Positions 1-50,806 of a stretch of 64,000 nt of DNA are shown here, in pieces; position 1 is the stretch's first letter, and every line of letters starts with the position of its first letter. The stretch is from Paeniglutamicibacter terrestris. GTDB taxonomy: Bacteria > Actinomycetota > Actinomycetes > Actinomycetales > Micrococcaceae. The translations under genes were made by a program, and so were the position numbers. The notes under the pieces are model-generated. The model was not told where the DNA came from, made no database searches, and saw only the letters and a list, made by a program, of their open reading frames with translations. The stretch covers positions 1 to 64,000 of the forward strand of contig NZ_JAAWVT010000008.1 of the NCBI RefSeq assembly GCF_012271785.1, given 5' to 3'.

Positions 1-90
1 ACCGCCACCACCGCTGCGCCCGCCACACCCACGACAGCCGCACCCACCGCCACCACCGCTGCGCCCGCCACACCCACGACAGCCGCACCC
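1..90 (+). repeat. Two tandem 45-bp coding repeats
   Basis: Positions 1-45 and 46-90 are identical and in frame, each encoding 15 residues of a Thr/Ala/Pro linker. The array probably continues to the left of the window. Such stalk repeats change length by recombination or replication slippage. Confidence 0.9.
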
Positions 91-12364: not shown

Positions 12365-12888
12365 GCGCGCAGTTCTCCTTCGGGGTTGGGACGTAGTTCT
12401 GGGGTGATATCCCACGAGCCGGATTTTCCGCCGGACTTGGCGAGCACACGCATGTCGGTAATCACCGCATGCTTATCAACGGCCTTGATCATGTCATAGA
12501 GGGCCAAGGCCGCGGTGCTCACGGCGGTGAGGGCTTCCATCTCGACCCCCGTCACCCCGCGGGTCTTGACCGTGGCGATGATCCGCACGCTATCGGTGGA
12601 CGATAGGTCAAAGTCGATGACCACTCTGGAGATGGGCAAGGGGTGGCACAGCGGGATCAGTTCGGAAGTTTTTTTGGCTCCCATAATTCCTGCAATGCGG
12701 GCCACGGCGAGTGCGTCTCCCTTGGGCATTCCCGCAGTGGCGATCAGGGCCAGGACCTCGGGGGTGGTTTTGAGGCTGGCTTCGGCTGTAGCTTCACGGC
12801 TGGTCTCGGCCTTGTTGCTGACATCCACCATGTGGGCGCTGCCATCGGAGCGAACGTGGGATAGCTCGGGTGTGGGTTCCTGGCTCAT
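12361..12888 (-). CDS. moaC: Cyclic pyranopterin monophosphate synthase MoaC
   Basis: 175 residues. The motifs [34 protein letters not shown] and [14 protein letters not shown] are diagnostic; the His in CHPLP and the lysine of DMIKAVDK are active-site positions. With MoaA it converts GTP to precursor Z. It starts at ATG 12888, overlapping the moeA stop by 4 bp. Confidence 0.95.
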
Positions 12889-14141
12889 GAGCCGTCTCCA
12901 ATGATCAGTGCCTGCACATCGCTTCCCGCGGGCAGGGCGGTGGTGTCTTCGTTGATGAGGATGAACGAGTTGCTGGCGGCCAGGGCGGCGAGCAGATGGG
13001 AGGAGGCCCCTCCCAGCGGGGTGAAGGTGCCATTGGAGTAGGTGCCGCGACGTACCTGTAGCTTGCCGGGCATCGAGGTCACCTCTTCGGTGAGTCTTGC
13101 CGTCAGTTGCTGGCGCTCGGGCAGCGAGAGGATCTCGGCGAGCGCGGGGCGCAGGAACATCTCGTAACTGACGTAGGCGCTGACCGGGTTGCCGGGGAAG
13201 GCAATGAACGCCACCGGTGCGTGCCCAGGCAACCCCAGGGTCCCTGCTCCCTGAGGCCCTCCCGGCTGCATGGCCACCGAGCCGAATTCGATGCCGTGAT
13301 TGATGAGCACCTCCTTGACCACGTCGAAGGCTCCTTGAGAGATCCCCCCACTGCTGAGCACCAATGAGTAGGCGCGCTCGCCGGCTTCCAAGGCGTGGCC
13401 GAGGGAGGCCACGAAGCTTTCGGGGGAATCGTCAAGGACCCCCACGGTGCTCACGGCGCATCCTGCGGCTTCCAAGGCGGTGGCCAGCAGGGTGGTGTTG
13501 GCGTCGTGGATCTGCCCGGGGGCAAGTTCTCCGCCCGGTGCCACCAGTTCGTCCCCGGTGGATAGCAGCAGCACCTCCGGGCGCCTCAGCACCGTCACCT
13601 CGCCGATCCCCAGTCCCGCGAGCAGCCCCAGGGATGTGGGTCCCAGCAGCGTGCCGGCGCCTAGCACCGGGTCCCCGGCAGCGATGTCGCTGCCGATGGT
13701 GCGGATGTAGGTGCCGGGCTCGGCCATGGCCGGCAACCGAACGCGGAAGCCGGAGGTAGTCTCGGCCGTGCTGGGGAACGTGTTGGGGTTCGCGGCCTCG
13801 ATGGGGATTACGGTGTTGGCTCCCCCCGGGACGGGGGCACCGGTCATAATCGGTGCCGCGGTGCCGGGTTCCAGGGCCGGTGCCCCAACGCCTGCGGCAA
13901 TGGGTGCCACCACGCGCAGCGGCTCGGACCCGAGGTCCGCGGTGTTCACCGCGTACCCGTCCATTTGCGAGTTGTCCCAAGGTGGCAGAAAACGCGGGGC
14001 AGTCAACGGGGCGGCCAGCGTCCGGCCCAAGGCACGGTCCAGGACAAGGGTCTCGGTGCCCGGGTTGGTGAAGGCCGTATCGACGATGTCCTTGATGCCT
14101 GCCCGGTGTTCGGCGACACTGCGGCGGAAGGGAGAGGTCAT
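12885..14141 (-). CDS. moeA: Molybdopterin molybdenumtransferase MoeA
   Basis: 418 residues from ATG 14141, chosen because AGGA sits eight bases upstream; ATG 14150 in the same frame is possible. Domain marks are [59 protein letters not shown] and [16 protein letters not shown], the usual MoeA order with a C-terminal barrel ending at [10 protein letters not shown]. It inserts molybdate into adenylylated MPT. First gene of the minus-strand MoCo operon. Confidence 0.95.
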
Positions 14142-14204
14142 GTCAACCATCCTAGGGCTCAACCGGCAACGGATACCCATTGGCGGCAGTGCTGCGACGA
14201 GGAG

Positions 14205-14798
14205 CTAGGCCTCGCTGGCCGGAGTTTTCTTCAGGCACCGGTAGCGCACCAGCATGACCCCTGTCTCAAAGCTTCGCGGTGGTTCCACCAGCTCGAAGGC
14301 GCTGGCGTCCACTCCCTTGGGGAAGAGCTTCTTCCCCGTGCCCAACACCACTGGATACACCCACAGGTTCAGCTGGTCCACCAGCCTCGCGGTGAAGAGC
14401 GACTGCAACAGGTCCGCACTCCCCCAGGTGTGGACCTGCCGGTGGGCGGCCAGCAGGATCGGGAGTGCTGCGGCGGCATCCACGAGTTGTGTGGTGTTCT
14501 CCCACGTGTGCTTCGGGGTGCCTCGGGAAGCTAGGTACTTGGGCACCGCGTCGAAGGCAACCCCGATGTCGTCCGTCTTCCCCGGCCAATAGCTGGCAAA
14601 GAGCTCATAGGTGATCCGACCCAGCAAGAGGGCATCGGATTGCTGCACGTCGGCAATGATCTGTGCACCGGCTTCGGCCGTCCGATAGGGAGTTTCCCAT
14701 CCCGGGTATTGAAATCCCTCGTCCTGGTCGCTTGGACCGCCGTTGGCCTGGATCACCCCGTCCATCGTGATGTGCATGTTCACGTGCAGCTCACCCAT
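14205..14798 (-). CDS. DHFR/RibD C-terminal-like reductase
   Basis: 197 residues. The protein follows the RibD_C/DHFR-like pattern: an opening beta strand LHVNMHITMDGVIQANG, then DALLLGRITYELFASYW, then VHTWGSADLLQSL and the late strand LWVYPVVLGTGKKLF. These stand-alone proteins are common in actinobacteria; most have no known substrate and are predicted NADPH-binding reductases. It lies 64 bp upstream of moeA in the same direction. It is likely unrelated to cofactor synthesis, though read-through is possible. Confidence 0.88.
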   Translation of the reverse strand: MGELHVNMHITMDGVIQANGGPSDQDEGFQYPGWETPYRTAEAGAQIIADVQQSDALLLGRITYELFASYWPGKTDDIGVAFDAVPKYLASRGTPKHTWENTTQLVDAAAALPILLAAHRQVHTWGSADLLQSLFTARLVDQLNLWVYPVVLGTGKKLFPKGVDASAFELVEPPRSFETGVMLVRYRCLKKTPASEA

Positions 14799-15243
14799 GA
14801 CGCGCTTCTTCCCTCACATTGGAACCGTCGGCAATGAATGCGCCGGCCGTTTGATGCAGCAAGTGTAGGCTCCATGCTGATCTCAGGAAACGGTTGTCCC
14901 GGCAGTTCCAACTAATACCGGGAGTGTGGATGTTGCCGCACTGACGCTGTGGGCCGGCCGCGCACGTCCCTCAACCATGTCGTGGGCCGCCCGGAGGAGT
15001 TCGTGCCGCGTCCGCACGGCGGACTCGCTCGAGGTTTTCATCGCCGGCCACACGATCGTGAACGCTGGAGGCCGCCATAGAGTCGGCCTTCAGGCTCTCC
15101 CCCGGGAGTATCGTTTCGATCGGATCCAATCTCCGATGTGCGCTACCAACAAGAACGTCGGGACCGCACAAGGGTGGGATCCCGATGGTCTCGCCGCCAA
15201 CTTTGTCCATGGCCGGGTGATGCTTCCGTCGAGGCCTTGGGTA
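14799..15243. other. Gap, nothing recognised
   Basis: The plus strand has a very long open frame beginning at 14926, but its composition and the real genes opposite show it is a shadow. No RNA gene or clear hairpin seen. Confidence 0.4.
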
Positions 15244-15456
15244 TCAGCTGCTCTGCGCGCCATCGCCTCTGGGGTCAAAGAGCTCATCGATTCTGCACCC
15301 GAAAACCTCGGCCAAGCGGAAGGCCAGCGGCAAGGACGGGTCGAACCGGCCGCGCTCGATGGAGATCACCGTTTGGCGGGAAACGCCGAGCGCATCGGCG
15401 AGGTGCTGCTGCGACCAGCCACGTTCCTGCCGGCGTTCGTTAAGCGAGTTCTTCAC
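15244..15456 (-). CDS. Small Xre-family HTH regulator
   Basis: 70 residues from GTG 15456, two bases after the upstream stop. Almost the whole protein is one HTH: SLNERRQERGWSQQHLADAL, GVSRQTVISIERGRFDPSLP, LAFRLAEVFGCRIDELF. This is the short YozG/YgzD-like type that usually sits with a small membrane protein gene, as here. It probably represses its own operon through the palindromes at 15961-15997. Confidence 0.9.
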   Translation of the reverse strand: MKNSLNERRQERGWSQQHLADALGVSRQTVISIERGRFDPSLPLAFRLAEVFGCRIDELFDPRGDGAQSS

Positions 15457-15458
15457 TC

Positions 15459-15932
15459 TCAGCCACGCTTCTTCGCCATGAGGTACCGGACGAACGTACT
15501 GAAGAAGCCGACCACCAAGACCCCGCTGAGAGCCCAAAGCACGTCGAGCTCGAACCCCGTGATGGAGATGATCGCTAGGACCAAGCCGGTCAGCATGATG
15601 GTGTCGCGAAAGGCACCAGCCATGGCAGCATCAAGCCAAGTCGATTCGATCGATTCATCTGGCTTGTCGATTGCTCCCCGCAGGCTCGACCTGTCGACGA
15701 CGAGAGCCCAGACCAAGCCCATGAGCCCCCAAGACATCACTAGGGCGAACACTCCAGCGACTGGCACCGCATGCTCGCCGTGGGCCACTCCCGTCCAGAG
15801 GGTGATGGCACCGACACCGATGGCCAGCAGCAACCCGGCCGGGACGGCGACGGCCAGGGCAGGAAGGCGTCCGCCGGCGAAGCGGGTACGGCCCCAACGC
15901 GTGCGACTGTCGGTTCCGGGTTCAACACTCAT
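15459..15932 (-). CDS. Four-helix membrane protein paired with Xre regulator
   Basis: 157 residues from ATG 15932 with AAGGAG upstream. After a basic N-terminus (TRWGRTRFAGGR) there are four hydrophobic segments, at about residues 25-50, 55-80, 110-128 and 130-150, with a short charged loop DKPDESIESTW between the second and third. It has no catalytic motif. The pairing with a tiny Xre repressor is common in Gram-positives; the role is unknown. Confidence 0.8.
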   Translation of the reverse strand: MSVEPGTDSRTRWGRTRFAGGRLPALAVAVPAGLLLAIGVGAITLWTGVAHGEHAVPVAGVFALVMSWGLMGLVWALVVDRSSLRGAIDKPDESIESTWLDAAMAGAFRDTIMLTGLVLAIISITGFELDVLWALSGVLVVGFFSTFVRYLMAKKRG

Positions 15933-15960
15933 GGACACTCCTTAAGTAAAGCGTGCTTGA

Positions 15961-15997
15961 CTTGTAAAACAAGCTTGACATGTAAAGTCCACTTTAC
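15961..15997. promoter_or_regulatory. Tandem palindromes upstream of the Xre operon
   Basis: CTTGTAAAACAAG (15961-15973) and GTAAAGTCCACTTTAC (15982-15997) are two adjacent perfect inverted repeats, about 30-65 bp upstream of ATG 15932. The half-site GTAAA recurs in both. They are good candidates for binding by the 70-residue HTH protein. Confidence 0.55.
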
Positions 15998-16369
15998 GCA
16001 ATCCCTCGTTTCAGAAATGGGCGGCATAGAATGCGACTCGGCGTTACGGCTCTTCGGACGTGCGCTTGCCGTGGCTTGGCGCATGGCCGAGGAAGTCGCC
16101 TCTCGCCCGCTGGCCCAGCGCTTCGGCCCGGATTGCGCGGCGCAGATCCAGCGACTCGACTACCAAACCTCGGTGCTCTGAGTGCGAGATGCCAATATTG
16201 CAGGCCGCGCACAGGGCTTGTTCAATGCCCCGCGCGGCCTTATTTCGCGCATTCTGGGATGGCCATCACCGGCGGGCGTTTCCTCGGACCCAGTCGAAAT
16301 GAGTCGAAGTCCGCCAACGGCCGAGCAATACAAGGGGCAATGCCCAGCAAGGTGGACTACCCTCAATAT
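15998..16369. other. Gap upstream of moaA
   Basis: No gene is supported, although plus-strand frames stay open through it and join moaA. Conservation with MoaA begins only about residue 30 after ATG 16370, so the upstream frame is not coding. No molybdenum-cofactor riboswitch fold was recognised by eye. Confidence 0.4.
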
Positions 16370-17473
16370 ATGGCGACGAACAGTGATACACCACGGAACA
16401 CCGTCAGCCTGCCCATGCCCACCATCCTGACACCGGCACCCGCAGACTCCCCCGGACTCAGCGACACGTTCGGACGGCAAGCCACCGACCTGCGCATCTC
16501 GCTGATCGATAAGTGCAACCTGCGCTGCACCTACTGCATGCCCGCCGACGGTCTGGCCTGGCTAGCCAAATCCAAACTGTTGACGCTTGAGGAAATCACC
16601 CGGATCGTCCGCATCGGTGTCCGCGACCTAGGAGTGCGCGAACTGCGCCTCACCGGCGGGGAACCGCTGGTCCGCGTGGATCTGGCCCAAATCATTGCAG
16701 GCGTCCGCGCCGAACACCCCGAGCTACCCATCTCCCTGACCACCAACGGGGTGGGTCTAGCCAAGAAGGCTGAGGCGCTCGCCGAGGCCGGGCTAACTCG
16801 TATCAATGTTTCCCTCGATACCCTGCACGCGGAGACCTTTGCCAAGCTCACCCGTCGCGACCACATCGATTCGGTGTTCGCCGGCATCGATGCCGCGCTG
16901 GCAGCTGGTCTCACCCCGGTGAAGATCAATGCGGTGTTGATGCGAGGAATCAATGACGAGCAGGCTCCCGAGTTGCTCGCCTGGGCGTTGGAGCGCGGGC
17001 TAGAACTGCGCTTCATTGAACAGATGCCGTTGGATGCTGACCACACGTGGCGCAAGAACAATATGGTCACCGCCGCGGATTTGCGTGCCTACCTGGAAAC
17101 TCGTTTCCGTCTCTCCACCGATACTAAGCCGCGTGACGGTGCACCCGCCGAGCGTTTCTTGGTGGCCGCCAACGAAGAACCGGAAAAAATCCTTGGTGCG
17201 GTAGGCATCATCGCCTCGGTGTCCGAACCCTTCTGCGCCGATTGCAAGCGAACTCGTATCACCGCCGAGGGCAAGGTGATGAGTTGCCTCTTCTCCCGCG
17301 AGGAAACAGATCTCTTGGCTCTGCTGCGCGACGGCTCGGATGATCACGCTATCTCCGAACGCTGGCGGGCAGCCATGTGGGCCAAGCCCCGCGCCCACGG
17401 AATGGACCACACCGGGCTGGGTTCAAAGGACTTTGTACAATCGGACCGCTCCATGAGCGCCATCGGAGGATAA
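16370..17473 (+). CDS. moaA: GTP 3',8-cyclase MoaA
   Basis: 367 residues, radical SAM. The first iron-sulfur cluster motif is CNLRCTYC (Cys 49, 53, 56), and the SAM-binding LRLTGGEPLVR follows. The C-terminal cluster uses Cys 289, 292 and 306 (CADCKRTRITAEGKVMSC), and the protein ends in Gly-Gly as MoaA requires. With MoaC it makes precursor Z from GTP. ATG 16370 lacks a ribosome binding site; TACCCT six bases upstream could be a -10 box for a leaderless transcript. The stop overlaps the moaD start. Confidence 0.94.
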   Translation: MATNSDTPRNTVSLPMPTILTPAPADSPGLSDTFGRQATDLRISLIDKCNLRCTYCMPADGLAWLAKSKLLTLEEITRIVRIGVRDLGVRELRLTGGEPLVRVDLAQIIAGVRAEHPELPISLTTNGVGLAKKAEALAEAGLTRINVSLDTLHAETFAKLTRRDHIDSVFAGIDAALAAGLTPVKINAVLMRGINDEQAPELLAWALERGLELRFIEQMPLDADHTWRKNNMVTAADLRAYLETRFRLSTDTKPRDGAPAERFLVAANEEPEKILGAVGIIASVSEPFCADCKRTRITAEGKVMSCLFSREETDLLALLRDGSDDHAISERWRAAMWAKPRAHGMDHTGLGSKDFVQSDRSMSAIGG

Positions 17474-38539: not shown

Positions 38540-40021
38540 CTATTTTTCTTCTTCGCTCACCACGATCGGATTGTCGGTTACTGCTTGGGGCACGTCCGGG
38601 GCCTCTGAGAACTTCGCAGCCATCGTGGCGTTCCCGCGGGTAAGGCGCTTGATCGTGAGGTCATCGGCCTTACTATTGGCTAACCGAAGATTGTTTTCGG
38701 AGCCAATCAGCGATTCCTTGACCTTGCCCAGCACCACAATCGTTTTATCGATGTTGTCGATCGCGTCTTTGAATTTTCGCGCAGCGAGGTCGTAGTTCCT
38801 GGCGAATCCCGTTTTGAAGGTGTCTAGAGCGGTCTCAAAATTGGTGATATCAATATTCTGCTCCCTGACACGGGCGAGCTCAGACTTGTATTCCAGCGAA
38901 TTCAGCGCTGCGTTCCGGAGCAGGGTGATGATCGGAATGAACAGCTGCGGGCGCACGACGTACATCTTTGGGTACCGATGGGACACATCCACAATTCCAC
39001 CGTTATACAGCTCACTGTCGGACTCCAGAAGGGACACGAGAACTGCATATTCGCAGCCTTTTTCCTTCCGGTCTTTATCCAGTTCTTTGAGGAAGTCCTC
39101 GTTCTTCTTCTTGGAGGCAGTTTCGTCACCTTCGTTTTTCATCTCAAACATGACCGAGATGAATTCCGTGCCTGCCTCATCCGCCTCGCGGAATATGTAG
39201 TCTCCCTTGCTCCCGCTTCGAGCGTCATTGTCCTTCTCGAAGAAAGCATTTGGAAAGCCTAGAGAGCGGACGCGGTTGAATTCGATCTCACAGTGCTGCT
39301 CAAGCGTCTCCCCGACCAATTTGGTTGAGAGCTTCGCCTTCAGATCCTTGTAATAGGCGATCATTTCGTCTCGAGCCTTGAGCTCAGCGGAATGTGTGTC
39401 CTTCACTGTCGACTCACGCAATTGCTGCTCGGTCTCCTTGGCCTGCAGATCGCGCGCGAGCTCGTCCCTCTGCTTTTCAATCACACTGACTGCTTCGTTG
39501 ACGGCGAGCTGCTTCGCAACCTCGCGAGACTTCAGCTCTTCATTGAGGCGTCCGATTTCGGCAACTTTTTCCGCAGTCTCTGTCTGAAGCTTGTTGGTGA
39601 GGGTCGCCTCAGCTAGCTCAATTGCAGACTGTTTCGCGTCTCGCACTTCCTGGAGCTGATCGGCCAGCACCTTCTGCTTAGTTTCTGTCGCGTCTAGATC
39701 ACGGACAAGGGCATCTCGTTCCTTTTCAAGAATCCGCACAGCTTCGTTAACCGCTAGCTGCTCCGCCTTATCGCGAGCCTTAAGCTGCTCGTGCAGGCGA
39801 ATGATCTCGGCGTTTTGCACGGCTGCTTCTTTCTCAAGAACTGCCGCGAGCTTTGTCTCTGCGAGCTCGACCGCATTTTGCTTTTCTTTTTCCGACAGCT
39901 CCAGTCGTTCGTGGAGCGCCTGCTCAAACTCACCGTCATGCAATTGCTTCAAGATGTCGGCGTAGCCGGACTCATCGATTTTGAACGCCTTGTGGCAGTT
40001 GGGGCAGATGATCTCGTTCAT
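38540..40021 (-). CDS. DUF2130 coiled-coil protein
   Basis: 493 residues from ATG 40021. The start [19 protein letters not shown] is the DUF2130 opening with a CxxCH metal-site half. A long coiled coil (about 30-230) follows, containing an internal duplication: [20 protein letters not shown] and [20 protein letters not shown] about 85 residues apart. Then comes the conserved domain, with [30 protein letters not shown] and [11 protein letters not shown], whose D...E-x-K spacing suggests a PD-(D/E)xK nuclease fold. The biological role is unknown. Confidence 0.82.
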
Positions 40022-40472
40022 GGGGACAACCTTTCATTGAGTTCATGCATGGTTTGCCGGGTGAAGTAAACGCTCGGCGGCCCAAGGAACGGACGTTCCC
40101 GGGCATTTTGGACAGCACGGAGTAGATTTATGATCTGTTTTTGATTCCTCGATTAACGAGGAATCAGCTATACCTTGGAGAATTTGAACCATCGAGCTGA
40201 CGAGCCCCGACGCTCGGATTCCGGTGCGTGGCCAAAACTTCCATGGAATCGTCCTCCGATGTGCCGGTACGGAAAATTGAACTCGAGACTCATCGTCAGC
40301 TCCGATTGAAGTGACTATTTCGGATGGACCCAACTGGGACGACCCCTGTAGGGATATTCAAGAACGATTGTTCTCGGCCACGCAGTCCTCAGCCTGGATG
40401 GCTGGAGTACCGGATGTGCTGGTACACAACGGATACTCTGACCTTTTGCCAGAGCCACCTGCGAAATTTGGC
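40022..40472. other. Gap upstream of the DUF2130 gene
   Basis: No gene supported. A perfect 9-bp hairpin (40143-40151 with 40157-40165, GATTCCTCG/CGAGGAATC, loop ATTAA) lies 122 bp from the DUF2130 start and could be regulatory. Confidence 0.45.
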
Positions 40473-41234
40473 CTAGCGCTTTTCCTCGATAGTCAGGGTC
40501 CATCCATCAAAGTTGGCTGCCTTGACATCTACGTAGTAGCTTCCTGCTTTCTTGTGCACCGCAGTACTCGCCTTCTCAGCCTTGTCGAGCATCAACAGGG
40601 GAAGCCCACCGTCGGTCATGAGATCGACTCCTTCTTCTTCCAGATAGACGCTGCCAAGTGAGAAGTCACCGCCGCCGGTGAAGTTATAGCTCATCCGGGC
40701 ATCTGCGCCAGTCAGTTCGAAGATCTCGCTCGCTTGACCGTTGGTGCCTTTGAGGGAGACTACCTTTGTCCATTTCTTGGCCTGTTCCACGGGTGCAGCT
40801 GCAGCCTCGTCGGCGGGCTTTTCGGCCGGCTCCTCTGCCTGCACCTGTTGAACTGGCGCTAGGCTGCTTGCATTATCGGCGGCGCCACCGGCGTCGGGGC
40901 CGGTAATCGCTCCAATAACGATGACGATCCCGGTGACGATCCAGGCGATCACCTTGTTCTTGTCGTAACCGGCCAGGGTTGCACCGGACTTGTCACGCTG
41001 CTTACCGGTTAGCACGAGGATGAGGTCGACAAGGACCCAGATGCCGAAACCGCCGAGGGTGAACAGCTTCAGCAATCCGGTCCCGATCTTGCCGAGGTAA
41101 AACCGGTCGACACCGAAGACGCCGAGGAAGAGTGCGAATAGCCACGTGGCAATGAACGACTTACCTGGTGCTGGCGGTGCGTATCCCTGCATTGGCTGCT
41201 GAGGAAAGGCCTGGTACGAATTGGTGGTGCTCAT
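40473..41234 (-). CDS. TM2-domain membrane protein
   Basis: 253 residues from ATG 41234 with AAGGAGG upstream. Residues 1-22 are Gln/Pro-rich. A TM2 domain (about 25-75) has its usual two helices joined by a D-R-F turn (FALFLGVFGVDRFYLGK, FTLGGFGIWVLVDLILVL). A third helix at 90-108 is followed by an Ala/Pro/Glu linker and a beta-rich outer domain (150-253) that begins KWTKVVSLKG and ends FDGWTLTIEEKR. Third gene of a run of membrane/secreted proteins. Confidence 0.8.
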   Translation of the reverse strand: MSTTNSYQAFPQQPMQGYAPPAPGKSFIATWLFALFLGVFGVDRFYLGKIGTGLLKLFTLGGFGIWVLVDLILVLTGKQRDKSGATLAGYDKNKVIAWIVTGIVIVIGAITGPDAGGAADNASSLAPVQQVQAEEPAEKPADEAAAAPVEQAKKWTKVVSLKGTNGQASEIFELTGADARMSYNFTGGGDFSLGSVYLEEEGVDLMTDGGLPLLMLDKAEKASTAVHKKAGSYYVDVKAANFDGWTLTIEEKR

Positions 41235-41324
41235 GGTGTCCTCCTTGCCGCTGTTGCGGCGCTCTAATGATGATCTGGATGAAATGTGAAACGGTATGTG
41301 GCCACATGGCCAGGTCGCATGGAC

Positions 41325-41945
41325 CTAGTTTTTCTTCCAGCTACCACAACGAGATGACTTGAAGTCTTGGCCTTTGGAAAGCTTCACGGTGGGCCTACCA
41401 CCACCGGGGATGTCGTTCTCGATGATGTCTCCGCCGTTACTGCCAGAGCTGTAGATAGCCCAATAGCAGGTACTGCCCACATCGGCGGTTGCGCGATAGC
41501 TACCAGGTTTGATGTCATCATCAACCGACCAGGTGCCGTCACTAACCGTGTTTGCAGCAGCCTCGGTCTCAGCGGTGCCAACGGCTTTCTCCCGCGTCTT
41601 CACCGCGGCCTCTGCATCGGAGACTTTGGATTCCTTCTCACCCACTGCGCTCTCGCGTTTTTCCAGCGCGCTCTCGCGGTCAGCAATTTCGGATACCAAG
41701 GTGTCGTGCTTCGTGGTCAACTCGGATAGCTCACGTTGATACGTATCTCGGTCGGTTGCAGCCACTTGCACGTGGCTCACCGCAGTGGCGTACTCCTCAC
41801 TCGCGGTTGGGTCGATCATCGCCATTCCTGCAGAGATTCCCCCGATGACCAGCCCGGCCGCCAAGACTGCGGCGAGCGTAATCTTGCCGCTTTTACTCAT
41901 TGGGGGCTTGGTTTCTTTGACTGTTGAATCGCTTACCGTATTCAT
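41325..41945 (-). CDS. Membrane-anchored coiled-coil protein
   Basis: 206 residues from ATG 41945, overlapping the upstream stop by 4 bp (ATGA). One membrane helix (about 20-45, ITLAAVLAAGLVIGGISAGM) is followed by a coiled coil (about 60-125, with repeated EKRESAVGEKE). The outer domain (about 135-206) reads GTWSVDDDIKPGSYRATADV, then CYWA and a late Cys in SSRCGSW; two cysteines may form a disulfide. That domain occurs in many actinobacterial secreted proteins of unknown role. Confidence 0.78.
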   Translation of the reverse strand: MNTVSDSTVKETKPPMSKSGKITLAAVLAAGLVIGGISAGMAMIDPTASEEYATAVSHVQVAATDRDTYQRELSELTTKHDTLVSEIADRESALEKRESAVGEKESKVSDAEAAVKTREKAVGTAETEAAANTVSDGTWSVDDDIKPGSYRATADVGSTCYWAIYSSGSNGGDIIENDIPGGGRPTVKLSKGQDFKSSRCGSWKKN

Positions 41946-42442
41946 GGCTGTTCCTGACTTTCCACAATGATGTTCAATCCGTTGTCCGGGTGGTAACTCC
42001 AACTGGCCGAGTAGCCTGACCACGTGGTTTCCTGTCGGCCATCTAGTGACCTGGTCGTACTCATACGGGCCTTCACGCTTTCGGGCATATCCAACCCATC
42101 CAGTACGCAGACGATCTCCGAATATGGCGCACCGGCTGTCTCCTTACCGCGAGTTTGGAGTTCTACGCTTTTGCCCTCATCCATGACCATGACGCCAGCG
42201 CTGTCGGTGAACTCGCAGTTCTGGACGGCGTTGGTGATGGCTACCGATGTGGAATCGGTGGAAGACTCAACAGTGGAACTCGAATTGATGCTTAGGCCGA
42301 TACCTAGGCCAGCCGCGATGCCGATGGCCAAACCTGCAATGCCGACGAGCCACGGATTCTTGTGTTTCGCCGCGCCGTTCGGGATGCCGGCGTGGACACC
42401 GGCGGTTGTTTGGTCTGGATGAGTTTGTGTTTGTTCCTGCAT
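41942..42442 (-). CDS. Single-span membrane protein of unknown role
   Basis: 166 residues from ATG 42442 with GGAGG upstream. A polar, Gln/Thr-rich start precedes one long helix (about 30-52, WLVGIAGLAIGIAAGLGIGL). The outer domain carries two cysteines, QNCEFT and IVCVLDG, spaced like a disulfide, and the ending NGLNIIVESQEQP. No known family. First gene of the three-gene operon; divergent from the RM operon. Confidence 0.75.
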   Translation of the reverse strand: MQEQTQTHPDQTTAGVHAGIPNGAAKHKNPWLVGIAGLAIGIAAGLGIGLSINSSSTVESSTDSTSVAITNAVQNCEFTDSAGVMVMDEGKSVELQTRGKETAGAPYSEIVCVLDGLDMPESVKARMSTTRSLDGRQETTWSGYSASWSYHPDNGLNIIVESQEQP

Positions 42443-42588
42443 GTCGATTCCTCCTTGAAAGCTGCGGTGAAGTAGCGGGCAGGTGGGTTGGCCCCAAGCC
42501 ATTCCCACCTGCCCTAGCGCCGGGTCTCCCCCAAGCACCGGGCATATTTCAAAGCTAGAGATCCCTGCCTAAACACTCAAAGTTCTTC

Positions 42589-42608
42589 TTGATAACTAGG
42601 GTTATCAA
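42589..42608. promoter_or_regulatory. Palindromic operator upstream of the RM operon
   Basis: TTGATAAC (42589-42596) and GTTATCAA (42601-42608) are separated by 4 bp, a perfect 8+8 inverted repeat. It lies 73 bp before the first RM-operon gene and between divergent units. A dimeric HTH protein could bind; the HTH at the start of the first RM gene is one candidate. Confidence 0.55.
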
Positions 42609-42680
42609 AGAATCATGAACTATTTGTTTCAACTGACGTAGGGTGGATCTAAACCACACGAGACGCGAAAGGAACGACGA

Positions 42681-44681
42681 ATGGGACACGCCGGTAACGC
42701 AGACCTCAAGCTCTCTCTTGTCGATATCTCTCGGTTGGCCATGGTGCAGCGTCCGGTGGTCTCCATGTGGCGCATCCGCCACAGCACATCGGCCACGCAG
42801 TTCCCGGATCCGGTGGAAGTGCGCAACAAGCAGGAACTGTTTCATGCCGACGACATCGTTGAATGGCTGCAGGAGACCGGATTGGGAAACAATCCAACGG
42901 TGGCAGAAGACGTAGCGGCATTCGCCAGCAGAGCACGCGAAAACTTTGATCTCGTCACCGCGTTGCTCGTGGTTCGGGCTCTCTGCGGGACCCAGCTCGC
43001 CGACATGCATCCCGAGGATGTCATCGATTTCGCCGACGAGCTTGATCCGGACGATGAATGTCTCTTCTCCGAGATCGAGTCCGGCGCCTCTTCTCTTGAA
43101 CCCTTACTGACCTACACCGACCAATTGGTCGATGCCACGTTCAGTGCCTCGGCAGCATTCGAGAAACTCATGGAAGACCGCTCACGGTTTGAACGAACGG
43201 ATGCCCTCTTCGATCCGCGAGTCCTCGGTTTGGTGGCGCTCGCGGCCCGATCACTGACCGACGGGCAGGCTTCGTTTTCAGATGCAACTCCCGGTGGCAG
43301 CGACCTGTTATTGGCGATCGCTGACAGCTTCGATGAGGCTACGTCCGTGACCTTGAAAACTGCTTCACCAACCCCAGCTCCCTCCCGATTGGCCATACGA
43401 CGCCTCAAGGTTCATGCTTTCAGCCGGGAAAATCTCCATATCGGCGCCCCAACTGTCGCTTTTCCCGGGCAAATTGTGGTTGCCCATTTTCCGGCAGCGA
43501 ATTACTCGAGCATGACCGATAAGCAGATCATGACCGCCGTTGACAATATTGCTCTGGAGTTAGACGGCACCCAGGCTGCGATCGTGTTGGCTCCGGCGCG
43601 GTTGCTGACCGATGCGCTAGAGGCCAGGACACCTGCTCGCATCCGTGACACGCTGCTCCGATCGGGAAAGCTCCGTGCAGCTATCCGCTTGCCGGCCGGT
43701 CTTTTGAAGTCTCGCCCGAGGCAGCCCTTGGCTCTCTGGGTGTTGGGCAAGGAACGAATTAACACACCCATTGCCGATCGCTGGACCACGATTGCTGATC
43801 TTTCGGCACTCACACTCGATGATTCCAGCAGCCAAGACGTAGTTGCCGACCTCATGGCATCCATGCAAAGCCGGGATACTTTGAAAGCCCGTGCTTTTCG
43901 ATTTACTCGCTTGGTCAGGACAAGTGTGCTTCTGGCAGGAGACGGAAACCTCTGCACAATTCCGCTGAAGCCCAATGTGCTCCAAGCACAAAGTTCAGGC
44001 CATACAGAGTTGTTGGTGAATGCCGAAGCCGCAATTGAGGCCCTGAACAGCACGTCCCATGGCTACCTTTTGGATATCCAGCTTGATCTGGGAGCAGCAG
44101 TGGCGGTGTCGCCTGCAACCCTCGGAGAATTGCTAGAAACCAAACATCTCAGGTTGCTCGCCGGTTCACGGCTCCACGCCCACGACACGACCAATTCCAA
44201 CGGGTTCACTGTCATCGGACTGCCTGAACTTCAAAACGGCACCAGCACGCGCCATATCGACAAATTGCAGCTGGCATCCCAGTACCCACAGGCGCACCTG
44301 ACCGAACCGGGCGACGTGGTCTTTTCGACCATTGGAAAACCCTCAGCTTGGGTGGATCGACGGGGCCTGAGCATCGTGGAATTTCCTGCCCGCATCCTTC
44401 GAATCAATCACGCCACCCGCGCTGGCTTGATACCGTCGGTTCTTGCGGCCGATATCACCTCGGGACAGGGTGGATCATGGCGTCGGTGGCATGTGAAACG
44501 ATTCCATGAAGAGCATCTGAAAAACACCAAGACCGCACTCGAGCAGATCGAGAGCAGTCGACAACAAGCACTCGATCGTGCAGCACGGCTCGAACAGCTT
44601 TCCAATCTACTTGCCCAGGGTTCGGCAACAGCCGCCCTGCGCATCAACAGCACCACGTCCACTCTGGAAGGGAACAACTAG
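42681..44681 (+). CDS. HTH-degenerate methylase-TRD-like protein
   Basis: 666 residues from ATG 42681 with AAAGGA upstream. Residues 10-65 form an AlpA/MerR-like HTH (LVDISRLAMVQRPVVSMWRI, then FHADDIVEWL) found at the start of many actinobacterial N6 methylases. Residues about 150-400 follow an HsdM-like fold but lack the catalytic blocks: ATPGGSDLLLAIAD (202-215) stands where DPACGxGG should be and FPAANYSS (270-277) where NPPF should be. From about 460 a specificity-subunit-like part follows, with HLTEPGDVVFSTIGKPSAW and a terminal coiled coil. Its stop overlaps the hsdM start by one base. I infer a non-catalytic regulatory or specificity subunit. Confidence 0.7.
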   Translation: MGHAGNADLKLSLVDISRLAMVQRPVVSMWRIRHSTSATQFPDPVEVRNKQELFHADDIVEWLQETGLGNNPTVAEDVAAFASRARENFDLVTALLVVRALCGTQLADMHPEDVIDFADELDPDDECLFSEIESGASSLEPLLTYTDQLVDATFSASAAFEKLMEDRSRFERTDALFDPRVLGLVALAARSLTDGQASFSDATPGGSDLLLAIADSFDEATSVTLKTASPTPAPSRLAIRRLKVHAFSRENLHIGAPTVAFPGQIVVAHFPAANYSSMTDKQIMTAVDNIALELDGTQAAIVLAPARLLTDALEARTPARIRDTLLRSGKLRAAIRLPAGLLKSRPRQPLALWVLGKERINTPIADRWTTIADLSALTLDDSSSQDVVADLMASMQSRDTLKARAFRFTRLVRTSVLLAGDGNLCTIPLKPNVLQAQSSGHTELLVNAEAAIEALNSTSHGYLLDIQLDLGAAVAVSPATLGELLETKHLRLLAGSRLHAHDTTNSNGFTVIGLPELQNGTSTRHIDKLQLASQYPQAHLTEPGDVVFSTIGKPSAWVDRRGLSIVEFPARILRINHATRAGLIPSVLAADITSGQGGSWRRWHVKRFHEEHLKNTKTALEQIESSRQQALDRAARLEQLSNLLAQGSATAALRINSTTSTLEGNN

Positions 44682-46291
44682 TGCCTCCGAAGAAAAAGGT
44701 TGAGACAGCACCCTCAACCATGAAGGAACTCAAGGACACGCTCTGGAAGGCCGCCGACAAGCTCCGCGGTTCCATGGACGCGTCCCAGTACAAAGACGTC
44801 ATCCTCGGCCTGGTTTTCCTGAAGTATGTCTCCGACGCCTTCGAGGAGCGCCGTGAACAGCTCAGCGAAGAACTCGCTGCCGACGGCATGAACGAAGTCC
44901 AGATCGGCCAGCTCATCGATGACACCGACGAGTACACCGGTCGAGGCGTGTTCTGGGTTCCGGGCAATGCACGCTGGGGCTACCTTGCGGAAAACGCCAA
45001 GGGCCTTCCCGCCATGGACGGTGAAGCACCGAAGAACATTGGCGAGCTCATCGATGCCGCTATGGATGCCGTCATGGCATCAAACCCAACGCTCGCGGCC
45101 ACCTTGCCACGCATCTTCAACCGGGACTCAGTTGATCAGCGTCGCCTCGGTGAACTGCTCGACCTGCTCAACACCGCCCGCTTCACCGGCCAAGGATCCG
45201 GACGCGCGCGAGATCTCCTCGGTGAGGTCTATGAATACTTCCTGGAGAAGTTCGCCCGCGCGGAAGGCAAACGCGGCGGAGAGTTCTACACCCCCGCCGG
45301 CGTGGTCCGCGTGCTAGTTGAGGTCCTCGAACCGACTAGCGGACGCGTCTATGACCCGGCGTGCGGATCGGGCGGCATGTTCGTGCAAACCGAAAAGTTC
45401 TTGGACTCCCACAACGCTGATCGCACCGCGATTTCCGTTTACGGTCAGGAATTGAACGAACGCACTTGGCGCATGGCGAAGATGAACTTGGCCATCCACG
45501 GTCTCAACGCAAATCTGGGCCCACGTTGGCAGGACACTTTTGCCCGGGATGTACACCCGGACATGGAAGCCGACTACATCATGGCCAACCCGCCTTTCAA
45601 CATCAAAGACTGGGCAAGGAACGAGTCCGACCCGCGTTGGCGATACGGTGTTCCACCGGCGAACAACGCCAACTACGCGTGGATCCAGCACATCATTTCC
45701 AAGCTTGCCCCGAGCGGAACCGCAGGCGTGGTCATGGCCAACGGTTCAATGTCCTCGAACTCCGGCGGCGAGGGACAGATCCGTGCCCAACTTGTCGAAG
45801 CCGATCTGGTCTCCTGCTTGGTTGCTCTTCCGACTCAGCTTTTCCGTTCGACTGGCATCCCCGTATGTACGTGGTTCTTCGCCAAAGACAAGACCGCAGG
45901 CGAATATGGCTCGGTGGACCGCACCGGACAGGTGCTATTCGTCGACGCCCGGAACCTGGGCCACATGGTGGACCGCGCTGAGCGTGCGTTGAGCGACGAG
46001 GACATCGCGAAGATTGCTCAGACGTTCCACGAATGGCGCGGCAGTGCGTCCGCCGAAGGCAATACCTATGTGGACGAGGCCGGATTCTGCTACTCGGCTT
46101 CACTGACAGAAATCAAGGAGGCTGACTATGCACTCACGCCCGGTCGCTATGTCGGTGCCGCTGATATCGAAGACGACGGCGAGCCGCTCGAAGAGAAGAT
46201 TTCACGTCTCAAACAAGAACTGTTTGAGCAGTTCGAGGAGTCCGACCGGCTAGCAGCGGTTGTTCGGCAGCAGCTGGGGCGAGTTTCGTGA
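44681..46291 (+). CDS. hsdM: Type I RM DNA methyltransferase subunit HsdM
   Basis: 536 residues. The HsdM N-terminal helical domain spans about 15-165 (ELKDTLWKAADKLRGSMDAS, LGLVFLKYVSDAFEERR). The N6-adenine methylase core has motif I DPACGSGGMF at residue 225 and motif IV NPPF at 303. It methylates adenine in the target sequence as part of HsdM2S. GTG start within TAGTG. The stop overlaps hsdS by 4 bp. Confidence 0.96.
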   Translation: MPPKKKVETAPSTMKELKDTLWKAADKLRGSMDASQYKDVILGLVFLKYVSDAFEERREQLSEELAADGMNEVQIGQLIDDTDEYTGRGVFWVPGNARWGYLAENAKGLPAMDGEAPKNIGELIDAAMDAVMASNPTLAATLPRIFNRDSVDQRRLGELLDLLNTARFTGQGSGRARDLLGEVYEYFLEKFARAEGKRGGEFYTPAGVVRVLVEVLEPTSGRVYDPACGSGGMFVQTEKFLDSHNADRTAISVYGQELNERTWRMAKMNLAIHGLNANLGPRWQDTFARDVHPDMEADYIMANPPFNIKDWARNESDPRWRYGVPPANNANYAWIQHIISKLAPSGTAGVVMANGSMSSNSGGEGQIRAQLVEADLVSCLVALPTQLFRSTGIPVCTWFFAKDKTAGEYGSVDRTGQVLFVDARNLGHMVDRAERALSDEDIAKIAQTFHEWRGSASAEGNTYVDEAGFCYSASLTEIKEADYALTPGRYVGAADIEDDGEPLEEKISRLKQELFEQFEESDRLAAVVRQQLGRVS

Positions 46292-47508
46292 GCACTCAAG
46301 AATGGCGTCAAAGCACACTGGCAGAAGTACTCGGAAGCAACGGTTCAATAAAAACCGGCCCCTTTGGGACGATGCTCAAGGCTAGTGAATATTCCGAATC
46401 AGGTGTACCCGTTATCTCCGTTGGCGAAGTCGGCTACGGCACTTTAAAACTCCGCAAAGACACCCCTCGAGTATCGCCAACGACAACGTCGCGGTTAGGT
46501 GAGTATGTTCTGGAAACGAACGATATTGTTTTCGGTCGTAAGGGCGCCGTAGACAGAAGCTCGATCGTCCGTTCCTCCGAAAACGGCTGGTTCCTCGGTT
46601 CCGATGGCATTCGTGTGCGTCTTCCCTCAACAGTTAATGCTGGATTTATTGCCTATCAGTTCCAGCTCGAAACCATTCGTACCTGGTTACTGCAACATGC
46701 CTCTGGATCAACTATGTTGTCGCTAAACCAAGGCACCCTTGAACGAATACCGCTTCTCGTTCCTACACTTGCAAAGCAACACGCCATCGCAGACGTTTTG
46801 TGCGCTCTCGACGACAAAATCGCAGCCAATACCAAGCTCGCGACGACTTCTTCATTGCTCGCCCAGTCGGTGTTCGCTGCGGCGGCAGATAACCACGGAG
46901 TTGAAGTTGGCCTATCTGAATCCAGCAGTCTGCTCAGCCGTGGGATAACACCCAAGTACTCGGATGATGAGGAATCCATGGTTGTGCTGAATCAGAAATG
47001 TGTCCGATATCAACGAGTCGGCCTCGGACCGGCACGCCGAACTATTCTCTCGAAAGTCCGTCAAGACAAGGAGCTCCACCTAGACGACGTTCTCGTGAAC
47101 TCCACCGGTCAAGGGACTCTTGGACGAGTCGCCCGTTGGACTCTCGACGGGAGAGTTACGGTCGACTCGCACATCACCATCGTCAGGTTCAATCCAGAAG
47201 TAATCGATCCGGTATGCGGCGGCTTCGCAGTCCTCCGTAACGAGGAGAAGATTACCGCCATGGCGGAAGGGAGCACTGGTCAAACTGAACTTTCTCGGGT
47301 TGAGCTCGGAAAGCTTAAACTCATGCTCCCACCCAGCGAACAGCAGCGGGCGCTCGGACAACATCTTGCAAAGATGACCACCATGGAAAATGCGTATCTG
47401 CTGGAGAACCAAGCGCTAGCCGCCACTCGCGACGCACTACTTCCACAGCTCATGTCAGGCAAACTCCGCGTCAAGGACGCCGAACAGATCGTTTCAGCAG
47501 CGGTCTAG
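46288..47508 (+). CDS. hsdS: Type I RM specificity subunit HsdS
   Basis: 406 residues from GTG 46288, overlapping hsdM by 4 bp. It has two target-recognition domains (about 1-150 and 205-340), each ending in the conserved helix start (LERIPLLVPTLAKQHAIADV and LGKLKLMLPPSEQQRALGQH). Coiled-coil spacers follow them. This sets the DNA sequence recognised by the complex; the sequence itself cannot be predicted. The two spacers are of similar length, consistent with an ordinary bipartite site. Confidence 0.92.
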   Translation: MSTQEWRQSTLAEVLGSNGSIKTGPFGTMLKASEYSESGVPVISVGEVGYGTLKLRKDTPRVSPTTTSRLGEYVLETNDIVFGRKGAVDRSSIVRSSENGWFLGSDGIRVRLPSTVNAGFIAYQFQLETIRTWLLQHASGSTMLSLNQGTLERIPLLVPTLAKQHAIADVLCALDDKIAANTKLATTSSLLAQSVFAAAADNHGVEVGLSESSSLLSRGITPKYSDDEESMVVLNQKCVRYQRVGLGPARRTILSKVRQDKELHLDDVLVNSTGQGTLGRVARWTLDGRVTVDSHITIVRFNPEVIDPVCGGFAVLRNEEKITAMAEGSTGQTELSRVELGKLKLMLPPSEQQRALGQHLAKMTTMENAYLLENQALAATRDALLPQLMSGKLRVKDAEQIVSAAV

Positions 47509-47512
47509 TGCT

Positions 47513-47549
47513 GTGGCATTTGTGCAACACTTTGTTTCACAAATGCCAC
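47513..47549. repeat. Inverted repeat between hsdS and hsdR
   Basis: GTGGCATTTGTG (47513-47524) and its complement (47538-47549) form a 12-bp stem 5 bp after the hsdS stop. No T-run follows, so it may be a partial terminator or processing site that lowers hsdR expression relative to hsdM/hsdS. Confidence 0.65.
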
Positions 47550-47608
47550 GGCTCAACAAACAAACGATAGATTCAGGTCAGGAACAAGTTCTGGGGGAAT
47601 GAAAACCG

Positions 47609-50600
47609 TTGAAAATGCAGACCAGCTTCACCGAAGCCGACTGGGAAGCGCTCGCACTCGAACAGCTGGGTGAGGAGAATTGGCGACCGTTGCACGGGGA
47701 TGCGATTGCACCGGGCACTGACGAGCGCGATTCCTGGGACGAGTTGCTCATTCGGCCGCGCTTGTTGGCTGCACTACGACGGTTGAACCCTGGCATCCCG
47801 GGGCAGTATCTGCAGCAGGCTGCGGTGGAAATCGCGGCACCCGGTTCGCAGGATGCGATCACCGAAAACCACCGTATGCACAAGAAGTTTGTCGAAGGGC
47901 ACCGGATCTCTTACTTGGATCCGGACGGCACCGAGCAGAACCCCACGCTCCGGATCATCGGAGCCGAGGAGACTGACAATGATTGGCTCGCCGTCAGTCA
48001 GGTCACCCTGATCCAGGGCGACTACCACCGTCGCTTCGATATCGTTCTGTACTGCAACGGAATGCCCGTGAGCATCATGGAACTAAAGAAGGCCGGAACC
48101 AAGACCGCCGACGTCGCAGCAGCACACGCCCAACTGCAGACCTACCTGCGTGAATTCCCGTTGGCCTTCCGCTTCTGCGTCTTTACCTTTGCCTCTGATG
48201 GCTTGGAAGCAAAGTACGGTACCCCGTTCACCCCGCTGAACCATTTCTCCCCGTGGAATGTCGATGACGACGGAATCCCCGTCCCAGTGGGCCACAGCAT
48301 AAACGGCGATGCGGTGCTGCCCATCGAGACAGCCATTGCCGGGCTCTACAACCCCACCCGCTTTCTGCAGCTGCTGCGCTCCTACACTGCGTTCGACGCC
48401 GGAGCTGAGGGCCTACTCAAGCGCATCGCCAAGCCGCACCAGTACTTTGCCGTCACCAAGGCACTGGGATCCACCATCGACGCCGTGCGCACCAATGGCA
48501 AGGCAGGCGTTGTCTGGCACACCCAGGGCTCAGGAAAATCCATGGAAATGGAGCTCTACACCGCCGCCGTCATGCGCCACCCGGCGCTGAAGAACCCGAC
48601 GGTCGTACTGATCACCGACCGCAACGAACTGGATGGGCAGCTCTACTCCGGATTTGCCCGCTCCCAGCTGCTGCCGGACACCCCGAAGCAGATTCGCCGC
48701 CGCTCCGAACTCCGCTCCGAGCTATCCGGCCGGGTCACCGGAGGCATCTACTTCACCACCTTGCAGAAGTTCGGCCGGACCAAGGATGAAAAGGACTCCG
48801 GCACCGAGCACCCACTGCTGAGTGACCGCAAGAACATCATCGTCATCGTCGACGAGGCGCACCGCAGCCACTACGACGATCTCGACGGCTACGCGCGTCA
48901 CTTGCGCGACGCCCTACCCAATGCCACACTCATTGCATTCACCGGCACCCCAATCTCCTTCGCGGACCGCAACACCCGCGACGTGTTTGGCGAATACATC
49001 GACGTCTACGACCTCTCGCGCGCCGTCGATGACGGCGCGACTGTACCCGTCTACTTCGAGCCTCGCCTGATCAGGGTGCAGCTCGCCGATGGCCGATCGT
49101 TGGAAGACTTGGACGCCGACGCCGATGAAGCAACAGCCGGCTTAGATGACACTGAACGTGCTCGGATCGAGCAATCGGTGGCAGTGGTCAATGCCGTCTA
49201 TGGCGCACCGGATCGACTAGCGGAGCTGGCCAAGGACTTGGTCGCGCACTGGGAAGTCCGCCGGGACACCGTTGCGCCGTTCATTGCCGACGCCACCGGG
49301 GACCCCACCTTCGGCAAAGCCATGATCGTTGGAGGGACACGGGAAATCTGTGCAAACCTCTATTCGGCCATCGTGGCCTTGCGCCCCGAGTGGCACTCGG
49401 ACGAGCTCGACAAGGGCAAGATCAAGGTGGTGTATTCGGGAACGCCTTCCGATACCTCGCCAGTTATCAACCATGTCCGTCGTGACTCGGCCAACAATTC
49501 CATCAAGGAGAGGCTCAAGGATCCGGGCGATGAGCTTGAACTGGTGATCGTCAAGGACATGATGCTCACCGGATTCGATGCTCCTCCCCTACATACTCTG
49601 TACCTTGACCGGCCGTTGAAGGGTGCACTGCTGATGCAGACGCTCGCCCGCGTCAACCGCACCTTCCGTGGAAAATCCGACGGACTGCTGGTGGCCTATG
49701 CGCCCCTGGCAGAAAACCTCGCCAAGGCGCTGAACGAATACTCACAGAGCGACCAGACACAAAAGCCTGTCGGCAAGAACATTGATGAGGCAGTGGCCCT
49801 TGCCGTAGAGCTGGTGACCCAAGCCCGTGAGCTGTTAGTCGGCCATGACTGGCGCGCGGTGCTGGGTAAGCCCGGGCCAAAGGCGTTCCTGAATGCCGTC
49901 ACCGGAGCGGTGAACTACCTGCGTGCCCCAGAATCACCGGGCAACGCGACCTCCGCGGACGGTGCCCAGCCGCTGGCCGTGCGGTATCGCCAGGTTGCTG
50001 GCCAGTTGGCCCGTGCGTGGGCACTGTGCACCGGTTCCGGCAAACTCGAGGAACTGCGCCCAGAGATCCAAGTGTATGAGGAAATTCGAGTGTGGATGGG
50101 CAAATTCGATGCCCAGGACCGGCAGGCCCGGGGCGAGCCCGTGCCCGAAGAGATCCAGCGCATGCTTGGACAGCTGATTGCCACGGCAACGGATGCCACC
50201 GGGGAAGTCTTGGACATCTACGAGGCCGCAGGCATGCCCAAACCCTCGCTCAGCGACCTCACTCCGGAGTTCATCGCCAAGACCCAGAAAGCACGGAACC
50301 CGCAGCTGGCCATCGAGGCGCTGCGCAAGCTCATAGCCGATGAATCGAAGCGCACCACTAAGAACAACGTCATCCGGCAGCGCGCCTTCTCCGCTCGCAT
50401 TACCGAGCTGATGAACAAGTACACCAACCAACAGCTGACTTCAGCGGAGGTCATCGCCGAGCTCGTTGAACTCGCCAAGGAAGTCGCAGCGGAGGCTGAC
50501 CGAGGACAACAGTTCACCCCGCCACTGGACGAAGACGAGCTCGCCTTCTATGACGCTGTTGCGGTGAACCAGTCGGCCGTCGAGGCGCAAGGGCCGGGCA

Positions 50601-50806
50601 TGCTCGCGGAAATCGCTCGGCAGCTGGTCATTGTCATGCGCCGCGATGTCCGAACCGACTGGACGGTGCGCGAGGACGTCCGAGCCAAACTGCGTTCTTC
50701 GGTCAAGCGGCTCTTGATTATCAACGGCTACCCGCCGGACAAGCAGCCCGAGGCCATCAAGCTGGTCATTGAACAGATGGAAGCGATGGCCCAAAGGGCC
50801 GTGTAG
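47609..50806 (+). CDS. hsdR: Type I RM restriction subunit HsdR
   Basis: 1065 residues. The N-terminal nuclease part has FDIVLYCNGMPVSIMELKK, with the D...E-x-K site (E158, K160). The motor has Walker A QGSGKS (306-311) and DEAH (415-418). Later helicase motifs include TLIAFTGTPISF and the VKDMMLTGFDAPPLHTLYLD block. It is the ATP-dependent translocase and nuclease. TTG 47609 is taken as the start; ATG 47615 is possible. All motifs are intact, so the system is probably active. Confidence 0.95.
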   Translation: MKMQTSFTEADWEALALEQLGEENWRPLHGDAIAPGTDERDSWDELLIRPRLLAALRRLNPGIPGQYLQQAAVEIAAPGSQDAITENHRMHKKFVEGHRISYLDPDGTEQNPTLRIIGAEETDNDWLAVSQVTLIQGDYHRRFDIVLYCNGMPVSIMELKKAGTKTADVAAAHAQLQTYLREFPLAFRFCVFTFASDGLEAKYGTPFTPLNHFSPWNVDDDGIPVPVGHSINGDAVLPIETAIAGLYNPTRFLQLLRSYTAFDAGAEGLLKRIAKPHQYFAVTKALGSTIDAVRTNGKAGVVWHTQGSGKSMEMELYTAAVMRHPALKNPTVVLITDRNELDGQLYSGFARSQLLPDTPKQIRRRSELRSELSGRVTGGIYFTTLQKFGRTKDEKDSGTEHPLLSDRKNIIVIVDEAHRSHYDDLDGYARHLRDALPNATLIAFTGTPISFADRNTRDVFGEYIDVYDLSRAVDDGATVPVYFEPRLIRVQLADGRSLEDLDADADEATAGLDDTERARIEQSVAVVNAVYGAPDRLAELAKDLVAHWEVRRDTVAPFIADATGDPTFGKAMIVGGTREICANLYSAIVALRPEWHSDELDKGKIKVVYSGTPSDTSPVINHVRRDSANNSIKERLKDPGDELELVIVKDMMLTGFDAPPLHTLYLDRPLKGALLMQTLARVNRTFRGKSDGLLVAYAPLAENLAKALNEYSQSDQTQKPVGKNIDEAVALAVELVTQARELLVGHDWRAVLGKPGPKAFLNAVTGAVNYLRAPESPGNATSADGAQPLAVRYRQVAGQLARAWALCTGSGKLEELRPEIQVYEEIRVWMGKFDAQDRQARGEPVPEEIQRMLGQLIATATDATGEVLDIYEAAGMPKPSLSDLTPEFIAKTQKARNPQLAIEALRKLIADESKRTTKNNVIRQRAFSARITELMNKYTNQQLTSAEVIAELVELAKEVAAEADRGQQFTPPLDEDELAFYDAVAVNQSAVEAQGPGMLAEIARQLVIVMRRDVRTDWTVREDVRAKLRSSVKRLLIINGYPPDKQPEAIKLVIEQMEAMAQRAV

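Follow-up and report, generated by a model that had tools for sequence, protein, structure and literature searches.

The gene that leads a type I restriction–modification (RM) operon in Paeniglutamicibacter terrestris, which we call X, quite probably encodes a dedicated regulator of that operon, descended, as sequence comparison suggests, from an HTH–N6-adenine methyltransferase that lost catalysis. Comparison of the window (the whole 64,000-nucleotide stretch of DNA that was analysed) with its relatives reveals an HTH, a dead HsdM-like fold and a half-S-like tail in the protein, a near-constant linkage of the gene to hsdM, a palindrome that tracks X and -10-like elements at a fixed spacing on both sides of it. 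In many actinobacteria X travels with this one conserved promoter palindrome, and a regulator built into the defence system is therefore its probable role. The features of the locus are collected in Table 1. The M, S and R genes have clear Pfam assignments, and the stop of X shares one base with the GTG start of hsdM (TAGTG), which confirms the claim, made in an earlier sequence-only reading, that X is built into the operon.

Table 1. Features of the X locus in the window.
Feature	Position	Strand	Remarks
TM2-domain protein, divergent	40473..41234	-	homologues at at least 21/88 loci
Z2, hydrophobic N-terminal stretch (by eye), coiled-coil-like part	41325..41945	-	homologues at at least 48/88 loci; C-terminal domain type GTW..G...GTYRA
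Z1, small protein, one hydrophobic stretch (by eye)	41942..42442	-	homologues left of the operator at at least 26/88 loci
TAGCTT, mirror -10-like element of the divergent transcript	42552..42557	-	from the row alignment on the operator
Putative operator, palindrome TGATAACTAGGGTTATCA	42590..42607	.	TGATAA-N6-TTATCA upstream of X
TAGGGT, -10-like element of the X operon	42639..42644	+	starts 49 bp from the operator start
Gene X, HTH – dead HsdM-like methylase – TRD/half-HsdS-like tail	42681..44681	+	666 aa
Winged HTH of X	42702..42899	+	residues ~8-73; predicted recognition helix ~24-33, RPVVSMWRIR
hsdM	44681..46291	+	536 aa, GTG start; DPACGSGG and NPPF intact
hsdS	46288..47508	+	Pfam
hsdR	47609..50806	+	start TTG 47609 or ATG 47615; Pfam

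No Pfam or NCBIfam family matches X above threshold, the N6_Mtase family of Pfam reaching E 0.21 at residues 296–361. In the AlphaFold2 model (mean pLDDT 86.1, pTM 0.60), residues 78–429 are HsdM-like and match the type I M protein 3khk with Z 22.6 (rmsd 4.7 over 322 residues); the N6_Mtase fold is thus present by structure match, weak as the Pfam match is. The protein also resembles chain A of PacII M1M2S (Z 21.9), and its TRD-like part (~480–600) is followed by a long helix (610–649). Residues 78–653 track 7eew_A, an intact methyltransferase of Vibrio vulnificus, end to end, the rmsd of 24.9 implying that the domains are placed differently. The winged HTH, at ~10–66 of the model, is predicted confidently (pLDDT 91.7), and its nearest solved folds are, weakly, of the MerR/BldC/excisionase type (the best Foldseek E is 0.025, and no match reaches 0.001). 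The sequence-only reading of an N-terminal HTH, a methylase-like fold with both catalytic blocks replaced and a specificity-like tail is borne out, the blocks themselves being placed by a profile alignment to a single HsdM sequence with a weak score (E 0.14). In that alignment, DATPGGSDLL of X falls on DPACGSGGMF of HsdM, and AHFPAANYSS on ANPPFNIK.

Homologues with intact motifs were looked for as counter-evidence to the loss of catalysis, and an NPPY/F-type motif at the motif IV position was found in none of the 94 nonduplicate X rows. Canonical motif I (DPxxGxG) occurs in three of them, all distant, in the form DPAAGAG, and is absent from the window's X. By its motifs X does not qualify as an HsdM, which is recognised by the SAM motif I together with NPPY/F, though it has kept the HsdM fold. 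An intact enzyme with its motifs elsewhere in the chain was considered and rejected, none being found; the SPPW of two loci (L085 and L091), a few residues beyond the motif IV position, was not counted as a motif. The methylase-like part shows dN/dS of 0.11–0.42 in nine pairs (simple Nei–Gojobori estimates, with high synonymous change in some), purifying selection that marks X as a real gene and indicates that the dead methylase body has a job. Within the TRD, residues G544, D545, V558 and D559 are invariant. PADLOC 2.0.0 (2023) recognises only the HTH, besides weak type I methylase matches: its PDC-M06B model, from the PDC sets that we take to be candidate embedded defences, covers only residues 12–83 (E 3e-4; 4/50 homologues) and does not match the protein as a whole.

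X is found in many actinobacteria. A match was present in 16 of 99 relatives, own genome counted, and a survey by profile scan of genome contigs, with the best 80 of 127 relatives retained, gave 79 loci; a class-wide search of 394 genomes added more full-length copies amid many HTH-only matches. The families include Micrococcaceae, Microbacteriaceae, Cellulomonadaceae, Promicromonosporaceae, Nocardiaceae, Dermacoccaceae, Pseudonocardiaceae and others, and the best 80 of 127 relatives alone represent at least about two dozen named genera. The scan of viral contigs with the X alignment found no relative. Two duplicates (L117, equal to L076, and L118, equal to L078) are left out of all counts. 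An Arthrobacter-like X–M locus (L064) is present under the title Sporosarcina beigongshangi (Bacillota), by contamination or transfer, and a phage-labelled record (L169, MT835479, positions 9001–16910), which may be a bacterial contig, holds the whole X-M-S-R locus.

The sequence-only reading had X upstream of hsdM, and this stands for 88 of the 92 survey loci, where hsdM follows on the same strand, 78 times no more than 200 bp from where the X alignment ends. True gaps are seen at L109 (3.1 kb), L114 (2.4 kb) and L129 (777 bp), the remaining larger distances being due to X alignments that end early; by eye, the 2.4–3.1 kb interval of the former two includes an amidase-like reading frame. In the other four, no downstream hsdM was found: one runs into a contig end (L093), in another the stretch stops inside X (L131), L078, from Mumia, has X and lacks the RM genes, and L110 has the later part of hsdR after the first part of X. 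In a Mumia stretch (L266, 6970–9021), X has its operator, and M, S and R were not matched in the 18 kb fetched. Seen from hsdM, all 16 copies of at least 68% identity in close relatives adjoin X, or a piece of X at contig or assembly breaks, and three copies of 52–57% identity are without it. Of 35 class-level hsdM matches, 16 are accompanied by X (including the own genome and a divergent sister in genome G354) and 17 lack a full X; of the other two, one begins at a contig end (G303) and one lies outside the comparison (G153). An absolute linkage of hsdM to X would therefore be too strong a statement. Ahead of some X-less hsdM genes, C-terminal scraps of X are recognisable by profile (L238, E 3.5e-5; L240, E 9e-4) or apparent by eye (L253 and L255), which suggests that X was lost from these four loci. 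The gene also diverges faster than its neighbour: over the same 75 loci, the median identity to the window's protein is 37.5% for X vs. 80.5% for M.

The palindrome, the paired promoter elements and the divergent genes had all been absent from the sequence-only reading. After removal of two duplicates from 95, the region before X was compared in 93 rows, of which 50 have the palindrome exactly, 28 with one mismatch, 10 with two and 3 with three; the first three classes make up 88 rows, and the two nonmatching rows (L109 and L114) have a palindrome with a 5-bp spacer instead. Shuffled upstream regions gave no match with up to one mismatch and 6 in 1900 with two, and outside the regions before X the survey loci (79, from the best of 127 relatives; 1.2 Mb) contain 12 matches with up to two. 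One locus, L069, is out of the operator count, its HTH match being under the cut, and its upstream region was unmasked in this background count. In the own 4.34-Mb genome, the exact pattern TGATAAN6TTATCA occurs once, with 2 near matches at one mismatch and 39 at two, and the reversed pattern totals 25. Among viral sequences, at least 120 stretches match the operator pattern, and we draw nothing from them.

As far as these comparisons reach, the palindrome tracks X, not hsdM. It stays with X in L078 (one mismatch) and L110 (exact), where no hsdM was found, and also accompanies X on two plasmids (L167, exact; L168, one mismatch) and in the phage-labelled L169 (one mismatch). Conversely, no palindrome with up to one mismatch was found in the 1.5 kb before hsdM at 17 loci without a full X (17 of 20 were scanned, L248, L254 and L258 being left out), and a single match with two mismatches was seen, at L238. 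The hsdM genes of the X-less L238 and L239 are ~70% identical to the window's, above several that have X (60–65%). At the sister loci L123 and L125, the operator reads GTTAA-N6-TTAAC and the helix region has SRQAV in place of QRPVV; this covariation is one evolutionary event, and a family-level search for further helix/operator pairs matched 2 of 22 genomes, both among the known ones.

Our promoter reading draws on the actinobacterial -10 consensus and on the positions of activator sites. With the rows aligned on the operator, TANNNT starts at +49..51 in 79 of 88 (control mean 0.86, maximum 5), and the mirror-image element, ANNNTA, begins at -39..-37 in 53 (the control has a mean of 0.49 and reaches 4 at most); only 48 of 88 have -10-like elements on both sides. 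Between the operator and these elements, no position reached the information cut used across the 88 rows, and no conserved -35 was found; a -35 matching 4–5 of 6 bases occurs in 16 of 79 promoters vs. 4 of 79 in the control, so some X promoters may not need an activator. Transcription starts are predicted near 42651 (+) and at about 42545 (-); by arithmetic, the operator centre is ~53–54 bp from each of the two, a layout that fits a bidirectional promoter arranged around one operator in the middle. Leftward from it, at 38540–42442 of the window, are Z1, Z2, the TM2 protein and then a DUF2130 protein, with DUF2130 homologues at at least 4 of 88 loci; other lineages carry DUF3892, RNase H-like or coiled-coil genes on the divergent side. 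As 13 of the 88 loci have less than 2.5 kb to the left of the operator, all counts of divergent genes are lower bounds.

On this evidence, X is the likely ligand of the palindromic operator. A dimer of X would bind TGATAA-N6-TTATCA through its two HTHs, and the bound protein would set how X-hsdM-hsdS(-hsdR) and the divergent gene or genes are transcribed. The sign of this regulation, activator or repressor, we infer from the spacing only: with the operator ~53–54 bp upstream on both sides at a near-invariant distance, the intervening sequence variable and no conserved -35, activation is mildly favoured, and we hold contact with RNA polymerase and positive autoregulation, as in C proteins, to be somewhat likelier than simple blocking, with a smaller share left for other modes. 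A repressor is the nearest of the three options offered by the sequence-only reading, since X has a matching operator; the geometry leaves repression itself unsettled and leans, if anything, toward activation. The methylase-like and TRD-like body might, as a guess, make binding respond to the RM system, for example to free HsdM/HsdS or to unmodified DNA. We regard it as a tentative idea, on the doubtful side, that X is an operator-anchored sensor whose dead body can still attach to unmodified DNA or to the modification machinery, both promoters then following the modification state of the cell. If true, a pseudoenzyme would read the epigenetic state and set its own defence, for example when a new host is entered or during infection. 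Type I M–S complexes also bind DNA, and the body of X may for that reason act outside transcription.

The retained HsdM fold and tail, the invariant TRD residues, the purifying selection and the near-constant presence of hsdM next door could also be what one would see if X were a decoy or modulatory subunit, another option of the sequence-only reading: its HsdM-like fold and half-S tail would pair with HsdM/HsdS, and the catalytically poor complex so formed would tune methylation or restriction, with the HTH secondary; here the usual type I stoichiometry (M2S) is assumed. Such a role is compatible with regulation and may exist beside it, though we think it rather improbable: it leaves unexplained why a palindrome comes with X and was not found, at up to one mismatch, before the 17 X-less hsdM genes scanned and why the promoter spacing is kept, and a fixed subunit would be expected to drift less than X has done (38% vs. 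81% for M, medians over 75 loci). The third option of the sequence-only reading, a second specificity module whose tail directs the enzyme to another target, has the TRD-like and helix regions in its favour. This is very hard to uphold, as the tail is not hypervariable: between the window and L022 it is 69% identical, near the rest of X, and HsdS of the same pair only 27% over the matched part.

The link between X and the palindrome being drawn from comparison, an unrelated host regulator might bind the site, and X would merely lie within the operon so regulated. Against this, which we consider unlikely, the palindrome accompanies X in many families, on the plasmids L167 and L168 and in the hsdM-less L078 and L110, and at up to one mismatch it was not found at the 17 X-less relatives of hsdM. 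Regulation by X itself is the reading that we carry forward.

A likely ancestral stock for X is provided by the solitary HTH–N6-methyltransferases of actinomycetes, with which X has in common the HTH, the N6_Mtase-type fold and the tail, in the order of that superfamily. The class search yielded 39 such other proteins, all of which the X profile matches over the HTH plus further stretches. Most keep motif I as DPxCGxG, and 18 have [NDS]PP[YFW] at motif IV by pattern (NPPF/DPPF/SPPF-type). No HsdM match was found in the stretch fetched for 37 of them; L204 and L208 have another M-like gene, of 25–30% identity, in the 5.5–7 kb fetched. In a tree of 81 proteins (a quick search with SH-aLRT support and no bootstrap), X forms a single clade (99); 33 of the 39 form a separate one (100), and of the other six, three are placed next to the HsdM outgroup and three close to Y. 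Y is a plasmid form (L166, L267, L268, L269, L270, L271 and L272) from Corynebacterium, Mycolicibacterium, Gordonia and Dietzia, an HTH-methylase with EPPF at motif IV (DPPL in L271); an NYN-domain gene precedes it in 7/7, and in 5/7 it leads a type I RM locus, with hsdM downstream. Y groups on the X side of the tree with modest support (84) and is a likely intermediate toward X. In X, a methyltransferase fold has clearly become a probable regulator, and likely intermediates, the EPPF variants beside hsdM, persist. The divergent sister in G354 (L237), also beside hsdM, has DLSAGAG and YPPF instead of the motifs. Two of the Y loci, L166 and L267, have in common the palindrome ACGTGAATGACATTCACGT, adjoining a TTGACA; as a clear perfect palindrome is common to these two only, we build nothing on Y-type operators.

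We found no description of gene X in an open-access library that does not cover bioRxiv. The closest functional precedent is RptR, described in 2025 as a dedicated repressor of gammaproteobacteria. It is a 79-aa helical protein whose gene leads a type I RM locus; it acts through palindromes to repress its own promoter, its TAGCTA repeats lie over the -10 box, and it is conserved with its site (PMC12255303). X likewise leads a type I RM locus and keeps a palindrome with the gene, and regulation of its own promoter would be predicted; it differs in its 666 residues, in the palindrome and its position, and in the methylase fold, which RptR, as there described, does not have. Mechanistically, the closest precedents are the C (controller) proteins and M.SsoII. 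The former are dedicated HTH dimers at an operator controlling their own type II RM genes (PMC3978073); small Xre-family proteins, they have no methylase or TRD parts in that account, whereas X is 666 aa long and its HTH is nearest, weakly, to MerR/BldC/excisionase-type folds. M.SsoII and M.Ecl18kI are methyltransferases whose N-terminal regulatory region binds a quasi-palindrome between the RM genes, with two protein molecules to each DNA; for M.SsoII, the methylase bodies are proposed to lie on the DNA flanking the regulatory site, and the complex competes with RNA polymerase (PMC3978073). The likeness lies in the predicted N-terminal HTH of X and the palindrome in its promoter region, and this precedent shows how an X-like protein can repress; M.SsoII is, however, a catalytically active type II cytosine-C5 enzyme, and X has a type I-associated N6-type fold with both motifs altered. 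PacII M1M2S, a type I enzyme with two different M subunits, M1 and M2, that is described as modifying both m6A and m4C with them (PMC9613975), matches X structurally in chain A, but X has lost both motifs and carries an HTH. By the features compared, X belongs to none of RptR, the C proteins and M.SsoII. The timing of methylation relative to restriction in type I RM systems is poorly understood, and X would offer a different, actinobacterial solution to it, with a ready-made operator.

A minor observation concerns the distal end of the operon. The end of hsdS and the start of hsdR are separated by 100 bp containing a 20-bp hairpin, and hsdR may thus be partly uncoupled from the operon. The hairpin, at 47510–47552 of the window, has no counterpart found at L022, the third locus checked; at L023 (12678–12722) a hairpin occupies the same place with a sequence unlike the window's, the two having stems of 20–21 bp and a 3-nt loop. 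Such a hairpin perhaps attenuates hsdR.
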